From the IMG/VR virus record IMGVR_UViG_3300013093_005309, positions 1 through 38,413 of that record: a stretch of 38,413 nucleotides of DNA; one strand, given 5' to 3'. The translations under genes and the position numbers were made by a program. Under the pieces are notes generated by a model, which was not told the DNA's origin, did no database searches, and saw only the letters and a list, made by a program, of their open reading frames with translations. This document shows positions 4,485 through 11,121 of the stretch, piece after piece (position 1 is the stretch's first letter; each line of letters starts with the position of its first letter). The DNA comes from a virus.

Positions 4485-4790
<306 letters not shown>

Positions 4791-4825
4791 TGCTGCTTTG
4801 TTTTTTGATAATGGCGACATTGCCA

Positions 4826-4871
4826 TTGCACCTGTCCGGGCGTCGAACCCGGAGCGTTGCCAATCAGGTTA
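4826..4871 (-). ncRNA. tRNA T-arm/acceptor-like RNA element, copy 1
   Basis: On the minus strand the stop codon TAA of the upstream gene opens the element: TAACCTG, an 11-nt spacer, TCCGGG-TTCGACG-CCCGGA, then CAGGTGCAA. The inner stem-loop has the loop TTCGA-NN that defines a tRNA T-arm. The outer ACCTG/CAGGT stem follows directly as an acceptor stem would. There is no D-arm or anticodon arm. A second copy is at 5303-5348. Role unknown: mRNA processing, a translation-coupling structure or a protein-binding site. Confidence 0.6.
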
Positions 4872-5270
4872 CTTTTTGTTTCGCTTTTTGATAATGGGCT
4901 TTGCGGTGATCAGGGGCCAGTAATCGACCTCGTCGACTGTTACCGGCTCTGATGCCAGCATGAAAGCGCAACGATCCTCTTCAATGCCCAGAGCATCGAG
5001 CATGGTGTGGGCCATTGCGACGTTGTTGAAATAGAGGGCACCGTCCCCTTTGTCGTTACGGAGTGGGAAGCCTTCCTCTACGAGGCTGATGTACCAGTCT
5101 TCAGGATTGTCTTTATCCTGGTGGAAGCCAATGAGGCTGTCGCCTGCCAGCTGCATTTTCTCTGCTGCAGCTTTGTTGATACAGTTGGCACCTTTCCGGG
5201 CGAGGCTGATCATTGGTTCACCTCGCTTTGTTGCCACTGTGTTTTCCGGAATGAACGTCAATAATTCCAT
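4869..5270 (-). CDS. Hypothetical phage protein
   Basis: 133 aa. The N-terminus TVATKRGEPMISLARKGANCINKAAAEKMQLAGDSLIGFHQDKDNPEDWYISLVEEGFPLR resembles a widespread uncharacterised Bacteroidota phage protein with an AbrB-like start (P.I.L.rkG...IN..A...m.l..G). The C-terminus is basic (KPIIKKRNKK). Its start codon at 5270 is immediately preceded by an AAAT tetranucleotide run. It lies between the two T-arm-like elements. No function assigned. Confidence 0.65.
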   Translation of the reverse strand: MELLTFIPENTVATKRGEPMISLARKGANCINKAAAEKMQLAGDSLIGFHQDKDNPEDWYISLVEEGFPLRNDKGDGALYFNNVAMAHTMLDALGIEEDRCAFMLASEPVTVDEVDYWPLITAKPIIKKRNKK

Positions 5271-5286
5271 TTATTTATTTATTTAT
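5269..5286 (-). repeat. (AAAT)4 run directly before a start codon
   Basis: ATAAATAAATAAATAAATG on the minus strand: four AAAT units whose last bases form the ATG at 5270. Copy-number change would alter the A-rich region that Bacteroidota ribosomes read, so it could tune translation of the gene at 4869-5270. Confidence 0.8.
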
Positions 5287-5302
5287 GACTGCAAAATCGC
5301 AG

Positions 5303-5348
5303 TTGCACCTGCCGGGGCGTCGAACCCCGGATGCTGCCAGCCAGGTTA
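5303..5348 (-). ncRNA. tRNA T-arm/acceptor-like RNA element, copy 2
   Basis: Minus strand: TAACCTG, 11-nt spacer, CCGGGG-TTCGACG-CCCCGG, CAGGTGCAA. The first TAA is the stop codon of the gene at 5346-5585. Compared with copy 1 the T-stem has gained one G and one C on opposite sides, a compensatory change that keeps a 6-bp stem and supports selection on RNA structure. A further small hairpin ACTGC-GATTTT-GCAGT follows. Confidence 0.62.
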
Positions 5349-5585
5349 TTCTTTCACCCAAAGCGGGTGGCGGAGCAATTCTTCCATACGCCTATCCCGC
5401 TGAGTGCGGGAAGTGAAGCCTTTCTCCAGAGTAGCCCAATCCTTGTGGAACTTGTCTTTGTACTTGATGCAGATGTTGATGTATTCGGGCTTCTGATCGC
5501 GCCCGTTTGGGAAGGTGGGCACTTCAGATGCCCGAATGATGGTAAAACCTTCCTGGATGATCTTGAACTGGTCTTTACTGTCCAT
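5346..5585 (-). CDS. Small hypothetical protein
   Basis: 79 aa. A short beta segment (FKIIQEGFTIIRAS) and a charged middle (YINICIKYKDKFHKDW) precede an Arg-rich helix (SRTQRDRRMEELLRHPLWVKE). Its stop codon is the first base triplet of T-arm-like element copy 2. Its leader TTTTAAAAACCGCTTAAATG is nearly identical to that of the tail sheath gene. Not recognised. Confidence 0.55.
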   Translation of the reverse strand: MDSKDQFKIIQEGFTIIRASEVPTFPNGRDQKPEYINICIKYKDKFHKDWATLEKGFTSRTQRDRRMEELLRHPLWVKE

Positions 5586-5912: not shown

Positions 5913-6440
5913 TCATGCGACAGGCTCTGCCTCCTCTTTCTTAAGCTCGATGAAGAACCTCTCGTCCTGATCTACCAACAACCCGACCTTTTTGAGGTTA
6001 GCGGCTACCTCCTGAGTATCGCGGTCGATGAGCAAACGATCTTTAGCTGGTTCTTCTATTTTACGCACATAGCCAGGCAGGTAAACTTTGAGGTTATCCA
6101 GTACCTTGGCCCAAGTCATTTTAGTGGCGAGCTTGAGCTTTGGTGTGCCGGTGCGGAAACCGATAACGCCGTGAACGGTGTCGAGGCTTTTCTTTTTGCT
6201 AAACACGGTATCCCGGTTCTCCAGGGCATATGTCTGCACTACTTCAAAGGCGTCTGTTTTGTCGGATTTCAGCGTATCAAGCTCTGCCTGGTACTTTTCC
6301 CTGATCCGAGTCATATCGGCGTCCATTTTGGCTGTTATGGCCTGCTCTTTGGCATCTGCCTTAGCATAGGTTGTGAGCGCTTCGTTGAACTGGTCTGCTG
6401 TGATGCCCTTCACGAGGGTCTTTGTTTCTCTCTTTGCCAT
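5913..6440 (-). CDS. gam: Mu Gam-like host-nuclease inhibitor
   Basis: 175 aa, the usual length of the Mu Gam family. An N-terminal antiparallel coiled coil (residues 12-75, ADAKEQAITAKMDADMTRI then KYQAELDTLKSDK) is followed by NRDTVFSKKKSLDTVHGVIGF and RTGTPKLKL, then YVRKIEEPAKDRLLID, the diagnostic block. Gam is a Ku-like protein that binds double-strand ends and shields them from RecBCD-type exonucleases during transposition. It sits in the early operon as in Mu. Confident assignment. Confidence 0.93.
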   Translation of the reverse strand: MAKRETKTLVKGITADQFNEALTTYAKADAKEQAITAKMDADMTRIREKYQAELDTLKSDKTDAFEVVQTYALENRDTVFSKKKSLDTVHGVIGFRTGTPKLKLATKMTWAKVLDNLKVYLPGYVRKIEEPAKDRLLIDRDTQEVAANLKKVGLLVDQDERFFIELKKEEAEPVA

Positions 6441-7617: not shown

Positions 7618-8556
7618 TTATGCTGTTTCCAAAGCGTTTAACAGATGGTGGCGGATGATAGCGCGTTTGATCAGGCGACCGTCGAGGACAACGCGGATGT
7701 TCACCTTTTCGTTCTTCTCAATTACCTGCTTGTTAGTGGGCTTGCACTGTGCGAAAATGCTTTCCTGGATAGCGGGATCATTGATGCCGTTGGCGGAACA
7801 AATGATGCGTGTGTCTTTGAGGGTATTGCCGGGCAATTCTATGAACGTGCGTCCGCAACGGCTGTCGAGCTCGTCGTACCCCTTGCGGTTGTACTTTACG
7901 CCACGCACAAAGTCGGTGCGCAGGTGCTCGGTACCGGCCATTATGACTCCGAGGCGATCTTCGCACTCGTTGAACAGGTGAATCAAGAATGACAATACAG
8001 AGGGCTTGAGACTGTTGGCCTGGTCGATAATGAGCAGTGAGCGGCCTTTGCGCGTGGCAAAGAACTCAATGACCATCTCCAGGATGTTATCCAGGCTTTT
8101 GTAGCCACTACCTACGTTAATACCCAAACAGGCTGCCAGCTTGTTGAGGAATTCCCGCTTAGACCAGTCGCGGCATATAATGCGGTGTACGGTCTTCGTG
8201 TTGTCGCCCTCCATGTAGGAATTAATGAGGGTAGTTTTACCGGCACCGGCGTTGGCGGCTATGCGCAGGAACAGGCCCATCTTGTGCGCATCCTGAAGGA
8301 TGGTCTTACCAATTCTGATGGTGGACGTTTCGGCTGTTTGCCAGCCCTTAGAGCGCCAGCCGAGTTTCATGGCCACGCGCCGCCACATATCGTCGCCCTT
8401 GGTGAGGTACTGATTGTCCTTCATCAGGGTGATGGTGGCTGCACTGACGTTGCATTTTGTTGCAACGGCCTGGTAGGAACCCAAGGTGTTCTTTGCTTCC
8501 TCGATCAGTTCGATAATTTCTGCTTTCACCTGATCGTTAATTGCTACATTTGTCAT
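7618..8556 (-). CDS. MuB-like AAA+ transposition target activator
   Basis: 312 aa, the length of Mu B. The N-terminal 60 residues form a helix-turn-helix (YQAVATKCNVSAATITLMKD). The AAA+ core has Walker A ANAGAGKTT at 101-109 and Walker B SLLIID at 173-178, then a sensor-like GVIMAGTEHL. The C-terminal basic domain (KVNIRVVLDGRLIKRAII) corresponds to MuB's DNA-binding end. MuB forms ATP-dependent filaments on target DNA, attracts the MuA transpososome and gives target immunity. It lies downstream of the transposase, as in Mu, with one small gene between. Confidence 0.9.
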   Translation of the reverse strand: MTNVAINDQVKAEIIELIEEAKNTLGSYQAVATKCNVSAATITLMKDNQYLTKGDDMWRRVAMKLGWRSKGWQTAETSTIRIGKTILQDAHKMGLFLRIAANAGAGKTTLINSYMEGDNTKTVHRIICRDWSKREFLNKLAACLGINVGSGYKSLDNILEMVIEFFATRKGRSLLIIDQANSLKPSVLSFLIHLFNECEDRLGVIMAGTEHLRTDFVRGVKYNRKGYDELDSRCGRTFIELPGNTLKDTRIICSANGINDPAIQESIFAQCKPTNKQVIEKNEKVNIRVVLDGRLIKRAIIRHHLLNALETA

Positions 8557-9024: not shown

Positions 9025-11121
9025 TTAATACTGTGTTCGCGGGTTAATAATGAGTTCTGAATCGTCGTCAAAATCCGTGGTCGGTTCTGCGCCCAGGTAT
9101 TTACTTTCTGCCTGTTCGGCCTGGCGCTTGGTTACCGTAGTAGGGGCTATGAGCGACAGTGCATCGTAGCCGGTGCCTGTTTTGCGATACTCCAATTCCT
9201 GCTTGCGGTATTCGTCAATCTCATCGAGCATGGCACTGCGGCGGCGTATAACATCCCACTGAGCGTCGGGGCCGTAGCGCTGAGCCGGTACTTCCTCATA
9301 GGCCCGGCCCAGGAACTGCTTTATAGGGCCATCGGTGATGCTGTAAAGCATTACCTCGGTAAGGTCTTCTACATCATAGCATACCAAAACGTGGCTGTTA
9401 TTGGCGAAAATCTGATAGTCAGCCGCCTTGACGCGCCAGTAGTACACCACCTTTTGTATTTCCTTGCGGATGAGACCAGCGCCGTCGACCGGCAGCTTGA
9501 TCTTGAAGCCGAACAGGTAGTAAAAATCTTCCTGCTGCAGCCTGATAGCGTTTGGCGTTTCGCTGTTCTGCCGAAGCTGCAATGGCGACAGCTGCACGGT
9601 GCTGTGTTTGCGGCTCCATGTGCAATAAGGGGTATTGCGGTAAGCGTCTATTATGTTATCGGTTTCGGCGGCTGCAGCGTCGAAGTTGAAACCTGATGCC
9701 GCTGCCTGCGACCGCATGCGCTTTATGTATTGCTCTGACCGGTGGGCGTACATACGGCGGCTGCGAACGCCCTGGCCATAGTAGTACTGGCTTTCCTGCA
9801 TGAACACGGTCTGCAAGGTGCCGAACCAGCGTTCCAGTCCCGGTTTTGTGTTTGGATCTGATGACAGGGTTACTGTCACACCCCACTGGCGCAGATCTTC
9901 CAGGAAGACCTTCATTTCGGGGGTGTTGTGGCCGGGGAACTTATCGAAGATCATTTCAAATGGCAGGTATCCGGTTTCCCTGGCGGCCATGCGCAGGGCG
10001 TTGAATACGGCCCAGCGATCTTCAGTGATGCTATAGTTCCAGCCAATGACGTCGCCGGAGTGCACATCGCGGACGGCCACTATATATAGATATTCCTGCC
10101 GGGTGCGCTCGATCTCCTTGCCGTCGGGGCCGGTTAGGGTCACTTTGTGTTTGAAGTCGGCCAGGTTGACGCGGGTACCATCTATCTGCCAGCAGTCGCC
10201 AGCGAAAAGGGCATTCTGCATAGGCTGGTAGCCGCGATACTTGATGCCGAACCGGCCTTTGCTGCCGAAGCGGTTCTCAGCAGTAAGGTACCTGGTATTG
10301 TGCTCTTCCATGATGCCACCGATCCACCTGTCCTTCGGAGCAGGTTTGTTGGTGAGCATACACATATCCTGCACCTTCTTAATAATAAACGTGTTGGTGT
10401 AGTTGGCCCCATAGTCGCGCAGCTGCAGCACCCATGAGCGAATCTCCTCGTCGTGGAAACCTTTGGCGGCATTATCGTTGTCGGCCCTTGGGAGGCGTAT
10501 TACTTCCACTATCGGCGTACCGGCCATTACGGCTTCGATCTTGCGCTTTACTACCCGGACGTTGGAACCGAAGTATGGCACATCGTGCGTACTGATGAAA
10601 TTTGCCAACTGCTGGAAGAAATGGTATTTTCGGGTGTCGATATTGCTGGCCCTGATGTATTCCACAGCGCCATCCATGATGGCTGCGGCCTTAGACAGGT
10701 TTTCCTGCTGCTGGCGGGTGCAATCGTTATAGCAGCGCAGGTAAGTAGTGAAGCGGTGGTTTAAACAGGCTTTAAAGTGCGATTCAAAATCGTGGTTAGA
10801 CGGGCTCACCATAGCAGCTTTGCCGATCTGGAGGAGCGCATCGCGGCCTGGAAGCTGTGAGCGGTAATGTGCAGGTGCTTTATCGGGGATATTGTCGTAG
10901 GCGTAGTAAAAGGAGTTGTTGATGAACGCCCAGCGCCAAGCCTTGCCGGTGTCCGGAAGGATATCCCTGCCGTGAAAGCTTGGGGAAACTGATGCTTTGT
11001 ATGCGGAACGGGCTTTCATCATATATTCTGCAGTCAAACCGTTACAGGCCAGGAGCAGGAATCCTTGTGCGATCCATGCGGTGTTGTTTCTGATGTATAT
11101 GTCGTTTGGACGTAGTTGCAT
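9025..11121 (-). CDS. MuA-like DDE transposase
   Basis: 698 aa (Mu A is 663). The catalytic core is visible: first Asp in CWQIDGTRVNL (D314), second in MIFDKFPGHNTPEM (D393), and Glu in GLERWFGTLQ (E430), with 36 residues between the last two, the D,D-35-E arrangement. Residues 345-365 (YLYIVAVRDVHSGDVIGWNY) are the RNase-H strand. The N-terminal ~260 residues would bind the prophage ends and the C-terminus would contact MuB. It cuts and joins phage ends for integration and replicative transposition. Starts 30 bp after the Ner-like gene. Confidence 0.94.
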   Translation of the reverse strand: MQLRPNDIYIRNNTAWIAQGFLLLACNGLTAEYMMKARSAYKASVSPSFHGRDILPDTGKAWRWAFINNSFYYAYDNIPDKAPAHYRSQLPGRDALLQIGKAAMVSPSNHDFESHFKACLNHRFTTYLRCYNDCTRQQQENLSKAAAIMDGAVEYIRASNIDTRKYHFFQQLANFISTHDVPYFGSNVRVVKRKIEAVMAGTPIVEVIRLPRADNDNAAKGFHDEEIRSWVLQLRDYGANYTNTFIIKKVQDMCMLTNKPAPKDRWIGGIMEEHNTRYLTAENRFGSKGRFGIKYRGYQPMQNALFAGDCWQIDGTRVNLADFKHKVTLTGPDGKEIERTRQEYLYIVAVRDVHSGDVIGWNYSITEDRWAVFNALRMAARETGYLPFEMIFDKFPGHNTPEMKVFLEDLRQWGVTVTLSSDPNTKPGLERWFGTLQTVFMQESQYYYGQGVRSRRMYAHRSEQYIKRMRSQAAASGFNFDAAAAETDNIIDAYRNTPYCTWSRKHSTVQLSPLQLRQNSETPNAIRLQQEDFYYLFGFKIKLPVDGAGLIRKEIQKVVYYWRVKAADYQIFANNSHVLVCYDVEDLTEVMLYSITDGPIKQFLGRAYEEVPAQRYGPDAQWDVIRRRSAMLDEIDEYRKQELEYRKTGTGYDALSLIAPTTVTKRQAEQAESKYLGAEPTTDFDDDSELIINPRTQY

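Follow-up and report, generated by a model that had tools for sequence, protein, structure and literature searches.

Two 44-nt elements located between early genes of a Mu-like phage belong to a class of small tRNA-like RNAs that, on comparative sequence evidence, is a real conserved RNA and is viral, residing in tailed viruses of bacteria and archaea. The class consensus consists of a 5-bp acceptor, an 11-nt spacer with a D-loop-like GG, a 6-bp T-stem, a T-loop of the form UUCRANN and, directly afterward, a purine followed by C. Its function is probably in RNA processing by RNase P and/or RNase Z, with each element acting as a pre-tRNA mimic in a polycistronic early mRNA. For the more specific proposal, that the elements are minimal tRNA mimics with their own pseudoknotted elbow and constitute viral punctuation cut by host tRNA-maturation enzymes, as mitochondria use tRNAs, we consider the chances to be about even.

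The two elements reside in a 38,413-nucleotide stretch of viral DNA (IMG/VR record IMGVR_UViG_3300013093_005309), which was analyzed in full and is here called the window. The initial annotation had placed two elements between early genes, and both were found, on the minus strand, which is the coding strand in the left part of the phage. The elements, their parts, and the neighboring features are as follows.

4826-4869, minus strand: element A, tRNA-like core (R1 covariance model 44.8 bits, E 1.6e-9; evidence from sequence and class covariation)
Parts of element A: acceptor 5' strand 4865-4869; D-loop-like spacer 4854-4864; T-stem 4848-4853 and 4835-4840; T-loop 4841-4847; acceptor 3' strand 4830-4834; tail GCAA 4826-4829
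Element A as DNA, 4869 down to 4826: ACCTG-ATTGGCAACGC-TCCGGG-TTCGACG-CCCGGA-CAGGT-GCAA
Element A in RNA sense, 5' to 3': ACCUG AUUGGCAACGC UCCGGG UUCGACG CCCGGA CAGGU GCAA
4810-4827, minus strand: hairpin directly 3' of element A, AATGGC-AATGTC-GCCATT, 6 bp
5303-5346, minus strand: element B, tRNA-like core (R1 covariance model 44.8 bits, E 1.5e-9; evidence from sequence)
Parts of element B: acceptor 5' strand 5342-5346; spacer 5331-5341; T-stem 5325-5330 and 5312-5317; T-loop 5318-5324; acceptor 3' strand 5307-5311; tail GCAA 5303-5306
Element B as DNA, 5346 down to 5303: ACCTG-GCTGGCAGCAT-CCGGGG-TTCGACG-CCCCGG-CAGGT-GCAA
Element B in RNA sense, 5' to 3': ACCUG GCUGGCAGCAU CCGGGG UUCGACG CCCCGG CAGGU GCAA
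5288-5303, minus strand: hairpin directly 3' of element B, ACTGC-GATTTT-GCAGT, 5 bp
4485-4826, minus strand: gene downstream of A
4869-5270, minus strand: gene downstream of B and upstream of A, 133 aa, no family
5346-5585, minus strand: gene upstream of B, 79 aa, phrog_34157, unknown function; its TAA overlaps B by 1 base
5913-6440: Gam
7618-8556: MuB-like ATPase
9025-11121: MuA-like transposase

Both elements overlap the TAA of the upstream gene by one base, its final A serving also as the first A of ACCTG. The initial annotation had also reported a compensatory G/C insertion in the stem. The two sequences are instead equal in length and align without gaps, and compensatory substitutions distinguish their T-stems at two pairs (T-A in A but C-G in B, and C-G in A but G-C in B). 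A D stem and an anticodon arm are absent, as had been proposed, but the spacer of both elements does contain a D-loop equivalent, NTGGCAN, so that a partner for the elbow is present and the D arm has not been lost entirely. The statement that the elements are not tRNAs stands: ARAGORN predicts 0 tRNAs or tmRNAs in the window, 0 Rfam 15 families reach their gathering scores there, and the 11-nt spacer is too short to hold the D arm and anticodon arm of a cloverleaf (RF00005). Even at E-values up to 10, Rfam yields only chance matches in the element region. The T-arm is of the tRNA type (G53-C61, with a TTCRANN loop), in columns that are invariant and were partly imposed by our search.

A structural descriptor matches the window exactly twice, at A and B, and finds 0 matches in 100 dinucleotide-preserving shuffles. 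The covariance model assigns A and B 44.8 bits each (E ~1.5e-9), both being among the 72 sequences from which this model (R1) was built, and the next-best site in the window scores 13.8 bits. Minimum-energy folding of single copies was not significant (z -1.5 and -0.8) and missed the acceptor of element B. We regard single-sequence folding as uninformative for so small a fold, and the evidence for A and B as comparative. The hairpins that follow A and B differ in sequence with pairing preserved.

The placement of A bears on the annotation of the gene that follows it. The first ATG of this gene (start 4826) falls within the tail of element A, and an alternative ATG at 4788-4790 lies ~39 nt past the helix of A. 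Judging by the spacing of other copies, the latter is the likelier start. The window gene 4869-5270 has a 38%-identical homologue in a Chitinophagaceae genome (L150) that likewise follows a copy of the element, so the association of the element with this gene is old. A protein search for relatives of gene 4869-5270 yielded none that were confirmed, the L150 homologue having been reached via the element itself, and a search for phage records close to the window found none. The gene at 4485-4826 also contains a perfect tetranucleotide array (CTGG x 15.8, window positions 4514-4576) that encodes (PASQ) repeats near the C-terminus of its product; because gain or loss of repeat units would alter the reading frame, the array is a candidate for phase variation. 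Elsewhere in the left minus-strand region, positions 838-1713 encode a D12-class N6-adenine methyltransferase.

Pattern scans yielded 171 distinct copies of the element, in 170 of which GG occupies spacer positions 4-5 (a GG nearby was a search requirement). A scan of the collection with the acceptor letters fixed gave at least 119 stretches. Among the matches listed, those with a 13-nt spacer are real tRNAs, mostly tRNA-Asp, and were excluded from the class, and those with spacers of 10 to 12 nt mostly represent a recurring non-tRNA element; three matches with spacers of 10 or 12 nt overlap tRNAs predicted by ARAGORN. When the acceptor was left free, its letters varied with pairing kept (for example, GCCCG/CGGGC, GGGUG/CACCC and GCGCG/CGCGC). 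The descriptor requiring an 11-nt spacer and a 6-bp T-stem has 180 matches in 1.42 Mb of fetched loci, a number that is not a frequency, since the loci had been fetched by related patterns, and it has 0 matches in shuffles.

In a dereplicated alignment of 72 sequences (A1), 13 of 14 base pairs exhibit changes on both sides, and RNAalifold returned the 11-bp helix unprompted. Acceptor and T-stem pairing were search criteria, and covariation within them is partly built in. Three contacts were never imposed: spacer base 2 with spacer base 8, spacer base 9 with T-loop base 7, and spacer base 10 with T-loop base 6. These contacts are standard pairs in 79.6% of cells versus 51.9% after shuffling, their covariation is 0.665 versus 0.19, and the signal collapses when the columns are slid by 1-3 positions. 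The pair between spacer bases 2 and 8, for example, occurs as A-U, C-G, G-C and U-A. Within the window, the three contacts are U-A, C-G and G-C in element A, and C-G, C-G and one mismatch in element B. We read them as a D-loop closing pair plus a 2-bp contact from the spacer to T-loop bases 59-60. From these flanking covarying pairs, we infer that the GG segment docks on the T-loop, which would be a shortened route to the tRNA elbow. The initial description of the elements as mimics of a tRNA T-arm and acceptor thus appears apt, since the GG-T-loop elbow, the coaxial acceptor/T helix and the purine-C tail all seem to be retained.

Several properties indicate that the conserved object is RNA rather than a DNA site. 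Copies of the same genome never occupy both strands in 20 virus records; in the six annotated phages described below, the copies checked are intergenic and oriented with their flanking genes; and the stems of copies within one genome are only 34-67% identical with pairing kept. The stacked helix has 11 bp in most copies, and 12 (6+6) in many copies with a 10-nt spacer.

We also observed variant forms. In longer relatives, an additional arm separates the D-loop-like segment from the T-arm, a form intermediate toward a full tRNA (L154 11858-11979, 12933-13134 and 16028-16210; L134 2543-2605; L046 6820-6912). Such extra-arm copies are present in Mycobacterium phage Fowlmouth, and these relatives hint that the element descended from a tRNA. 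A near-invariant copy with a 10-nt spacer, CCTGATTGGTATCACCAAGGTTCGAATCCTTGGCAGG, occurs in many phage contigs (L013, L025, L033, L040, L051, L061 and more), with one copy each in three contigs searched whole. Its tail is not purine-C, and it is perhaps another subclass.

The tail and its surroundings are strongly constrained. A purine and then C follow the helix in all 137 spacer-11 copies that have a clean 5-bp acceptor (binomial figures for this tail are only a guide, the copies being related). The third tail base is C in 1 of these 137, and CCA is not encoded. Among tRNA genes sampled from element-carrying Chitinophagaceae and Kribbella genomes, C74 is present in 40 of 40 and position 75 is mostly not C; a second C occurs in 8 of 23 Kribbella tRNAs, and the element avoids it more strictly. 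The 3' end of the element is therefore that of a host pre-tRNA in which CCA is missing. A hairpin with a stem of at least 5 bp occurs near the 3' side in 57% of copies versus 16% in shuffles, and in many copies it starts 2-5 nt after the helix. The retention of C74 in all 40 of these sampled tRNA genes (G029 and G030), although CCA is not encoded, is notable for tRNA genes in its own right. In two haloarchaeal tailed viruses (L197 and L200), all copies have a C directly after the acceptor, with no purine, and then a hairpin, a tail rule different from that of bacterial copies.

In the collected copies, with ORFs called by rule, the element lies a median of 8 nt from the upstream stop codon, and the following start codon is a median of 40 nt away. 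All 26 copies checked in six annotated phages (Konstantine, Joe, VOLN27B, CRP19, Rabbitrun and Fowlmouth) are intergenic and on the same strand as both flanking genes, a count that leaves aside two Fowlmouth copies under small, possibly misannotated coding sequences and a ninth, weaker copy in Joe. Copies in these six phages mostly begin 5-15 nt past the stop and lie 30-55 nt ahead of the next start; in Joe and Konstantine, the distance from element to start is 33-53 nt. Copies cluster in small-gene regions outside the structural block. In the Fowlmouth stretch, 16 of 22 intergenic gaps carry no element, and because many gaps of the same phage lack it, any processing would not be general.

The covariance model built from 72 copies finds 5-14 copies per phage of Streptomyces and Mycobacterium, and also finds copies in tailed haloarchaeal viruses. 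Model-confirmed copies number 7 in Konstantine, 2 in Riemerella phage CRP19, 1 in Gordonia phage Rabbitrun, and, among haloarchaeal viruses, 2 in VOLN27B and 5 in HRTV-27. The initial annotation had proposed such a search across Bacteroidota phages, and it recovered 1-2 copies per phage; that annotation had also made its reading depend on further copies and a conserved loop, and copies do occur in other phages with the loop conserved. Elements mostly score 30-60 bits with this model, whereas the true tRNAs of Manuel, a related phage with 0 copies whose ordinary tRNA array served as a specificity control, give partial matches of at most 16.4 bits. When one consensus copy was compared with named phages, 235 records matched (Streptomyces 114, Mycobacterium 33, Halorubrum 31, Gordonia 17, Haloarcula 11, Riemerella 6, and others), the weakest of which are ordinary tRNA T-arms. 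Among the strong sites listed in this comparison, nearly all lack an annotated feature. The element is rare in cellular genomes: one strict pattern has 13 sites in 84,980 species genomes, and a coarse first look at Bacteroidota genomes beyond the query found the element in 1 of 395.

We propose that each element would function in cis as a pre-tRNA mimic within a polycistronic early viral mRNA. The 5-bp acceptor would stack on the 6-bp T-stem to form an 11-bp helix, and the GG of the D-loop-like segment would dock on the T-loop to create a tRNA elbow, with a single D-loop closing pair and two spacer pairs to T-loop bases 59-60 holding it in place. By ending the helix with a purine-C tail, the RNA would imitate a host pre-tRNA without encoded CCA. 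Cutting by host RNase P is predicted on the 5' side of the acceptor, probably joined by an RNase Z cut after the tail purine. After cutting, the upstream message would terminate just past its own stop codon, and the downstream message would begin with a structured 5' leader. This leader would be the element itself if RNase P alone cuts, or, if both enzymes do, a hairpin often starting 2-5 nt past the acceptor. The likely benefit would be separate stability and translation of early genes. Of this scheme, the sequences themselves show the secondary structure, its covariation, the tail, and the position, orientation and distribution of the copies; docking, recognition, cleavage sites and benefit are what we infer.

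RNase P is reported to recognize the T-stem-loop and to gauge the distance from the T-loop to the end, with its P15 loop pairing with the RCC of the tail (PMC11143913). It is also reported to cut hairpins consisting of an acceptor and T-arm, with interference at G19, G53 and A58 (PMC11143913). Since the features that the element retains (elbow, coaxial helix and purine-C tail) are RNase P contacts (PMC11143913), we favor a reading that involves this enzyme. The initial annotation had suggested that the elements could recruit tRNA-processing enzymes to cut the early mRNA, and these features, together with placement between genes, support that suggestion. Lost from the element are the anticodon, the D stem and CCA, and everything used solely in decoding or charging. 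RNase Z acts on tRNAs without CCA, and avoidance of a second C would fit its action. Because the hairpin starts 2-5 nt after the helix in many copies, a cut by RNase Z would leave a 5'-proximal hairpin on the downstream mRNA. Against processing, the stacked helix is mostly 11 bp versus 12 in tRNA, the length that RNase P is thought to measure, the archaeal-virus copies end in C without a purine, many gaps of a carrier phage lack the element, the related phage Manuel has none at all, and loop L15 of the host-type RNase P RNAs inspected has no recognizable GGU (the partner of RCC in E. coli).

Other readings must be weighed against processing. The element might be bound and left uncut, capturing a host factor that binds the elbow (EF-Tu, RNase P, T-loop modification enzymes or the ribosome), and so act as a translation enhancer or switch ~40 nt ahead of the downstream start codon. 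The fixed spacing to the next start (33-53 nt in Joe and Konstantine), the frequent hairpin ahead of the start and the conserved elbow bases would all suit such a role. We nevertheless judge it unlikely, for spacing to the upstream stop is tight too, and elbow binding alone leaves unexplained a purine-C tail that matches the trailer of host pre-tRNAs. Quite improbable, in our estimation, is a tRNA decoy that titrates host tRNA-directed defense or toxin nucleases, with intergenic sites used merely where room exists. A decoy would account for an elbow kept while the anticodon is lost, and for genomes in which numerous copies gather among small genes away from the structural block, but it has no need for a purine-C tail, a fixed spacing to start codons or placement of one copy per gap, and Bacteroidota phages carry only 1-2 copies.

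We assign a very low probability to an RNA antiterminator (like HK022 put) or other transcription-elongation signal of early operons. Early-type genes, a single orientation and multiple copies would be expected of such a signal, yet the strongest conservation is in the tRNA elbow and tail, copies occur before single genes deep in operons and not once after a promoter, and the element is shared by archaeal and bacterial viruses, which are transcribed by different RNA polymerases. We consider it scarcely credible that the copies are tRNA genes in decay or a repeat acting at the DNA level, such as a stoperator-like protein site or an integration site. Stoperators are likewise intergenic, repeated and in one orientation (PMC3029335), and the longer extra-arm copies in Fowlmouth hint at tRNA descent; however, the stems vary freely with pairing kept, even among copies of one genome, and decaying tRNAs would not keep an exact 11-nt spacer with its own covarying contacts. 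A stoperator-like DNA site was specifically considered and rejected, as primary sequence is not conserved (stems 34-67% identical among the copies of one genome).

We found no description of the element in the open-licence literature, and earlier work elsewhere is possible. Rfam does not include it, and the phage records checked carry no annotation for it. Use of a tRNA mimic as a processing signal is already known; to our knowledge, a viral form that is minimal, repeated and spread across two domains is new. Whatever the mechanism, the elements form a structured RNA class outside Rfam that spans viruses of two domains. If processing is correct, many well-studied phages carry a code for mRNA processing that has been overlooked and that relies on an essential ribozyme of the host, the carriers including Streptomyces phages Joe and Endor1, Mycobacterium phages Konstantine, Papyrus and Fowlmouth, and haloarchaeal tailed viruses. 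It would be a tRNA-punctuation system outside organelles, would supply natural minimal substrates for probing what RNase P and RNase Z require, and would offer a compact part for cutting synthetic operons. The extent of RNase P action on mRNA would then be directly testable, because each copy predicts exact RNA ends.

The elements of phage Joe and L134 match no Rfam 15 family at its gathering score. The single family that aligns full-length to copies is mascRNA-menRNA (RF01684), below its 42.5-bit cut-off: its best score at an R1-supported copy is 26.3 bits, the Joe element scores 26.2, and the window gives a partial match of 12.1 bits. The RF01684 model also gives weak signals in all 14 control genomes. 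The mascRNA and menRNA, found at the 3' ends of MALAT1 and MEN-beta, resemble the element in being tRNA-like RNAs inside a longer transcript, with a T-arm; their two D-loop guanines form the elbow, as the GG of the element would, and their D stem contacts T-loop bases (PMC11693755). In mascRNA, D-stem to T-loop triples replace the elbow contacts of tRNA itself, and the RNA is cut by RNase P and then by RNase Z (PMC11693755). They differ in belonging to vertebrate lncRNAs and in having a 7-bp acceptor, D and anticodon-like arms and an added CCA, whereas the phage element has ~44 nt, no anticodon arm and many copies between protein genes.

The t-elements of plant mitochondria are tRNA-like structures between genes that mark cuts by RNase P and RNase Z. 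According to PMC8601606, intergenic tRNAs mark RNase P and RNase Z cuts in polycistronic mitochondrial RNA. These signals are mostly real tRNAs in organelles, whereas the element is a dedicated minimal mimic in dsDNA viruses. In the model RNase P substrate AT1, an acceptor, T-stem and T-loop suffice for cutting (PMC11143913), and individual phage RNAs, phi80 M3 RNA and P1/P7 C4 RNA, are known RNase P substrates (PMC12710915). AT1 was designed, and M3 and C4 are single cases, unlike a repeated intergenic element with a D-loop-like segment. The tRNA-like domain of tmRNA, as in the element, combines an acceptor, T-arm and D-loop with no D stem, but the acceptor of tmRNA is 7 bp long, and tmRNA ends in CCA and includes a reading frame for the tag. 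The 3' tRNA-like structures of plant viruses (TYMV and others) are viral tRNA mimics that use a pseudoknot and are RNase P substrates (PMC12710915). They form the 3' ends of RNA genomes and terminate in CCA, whereas the phage element is internal, lacks CCA and occurs in dsDNA viruses. In principle, the closest known relative of the element is the eukaryotic mascRNA/menRNA.
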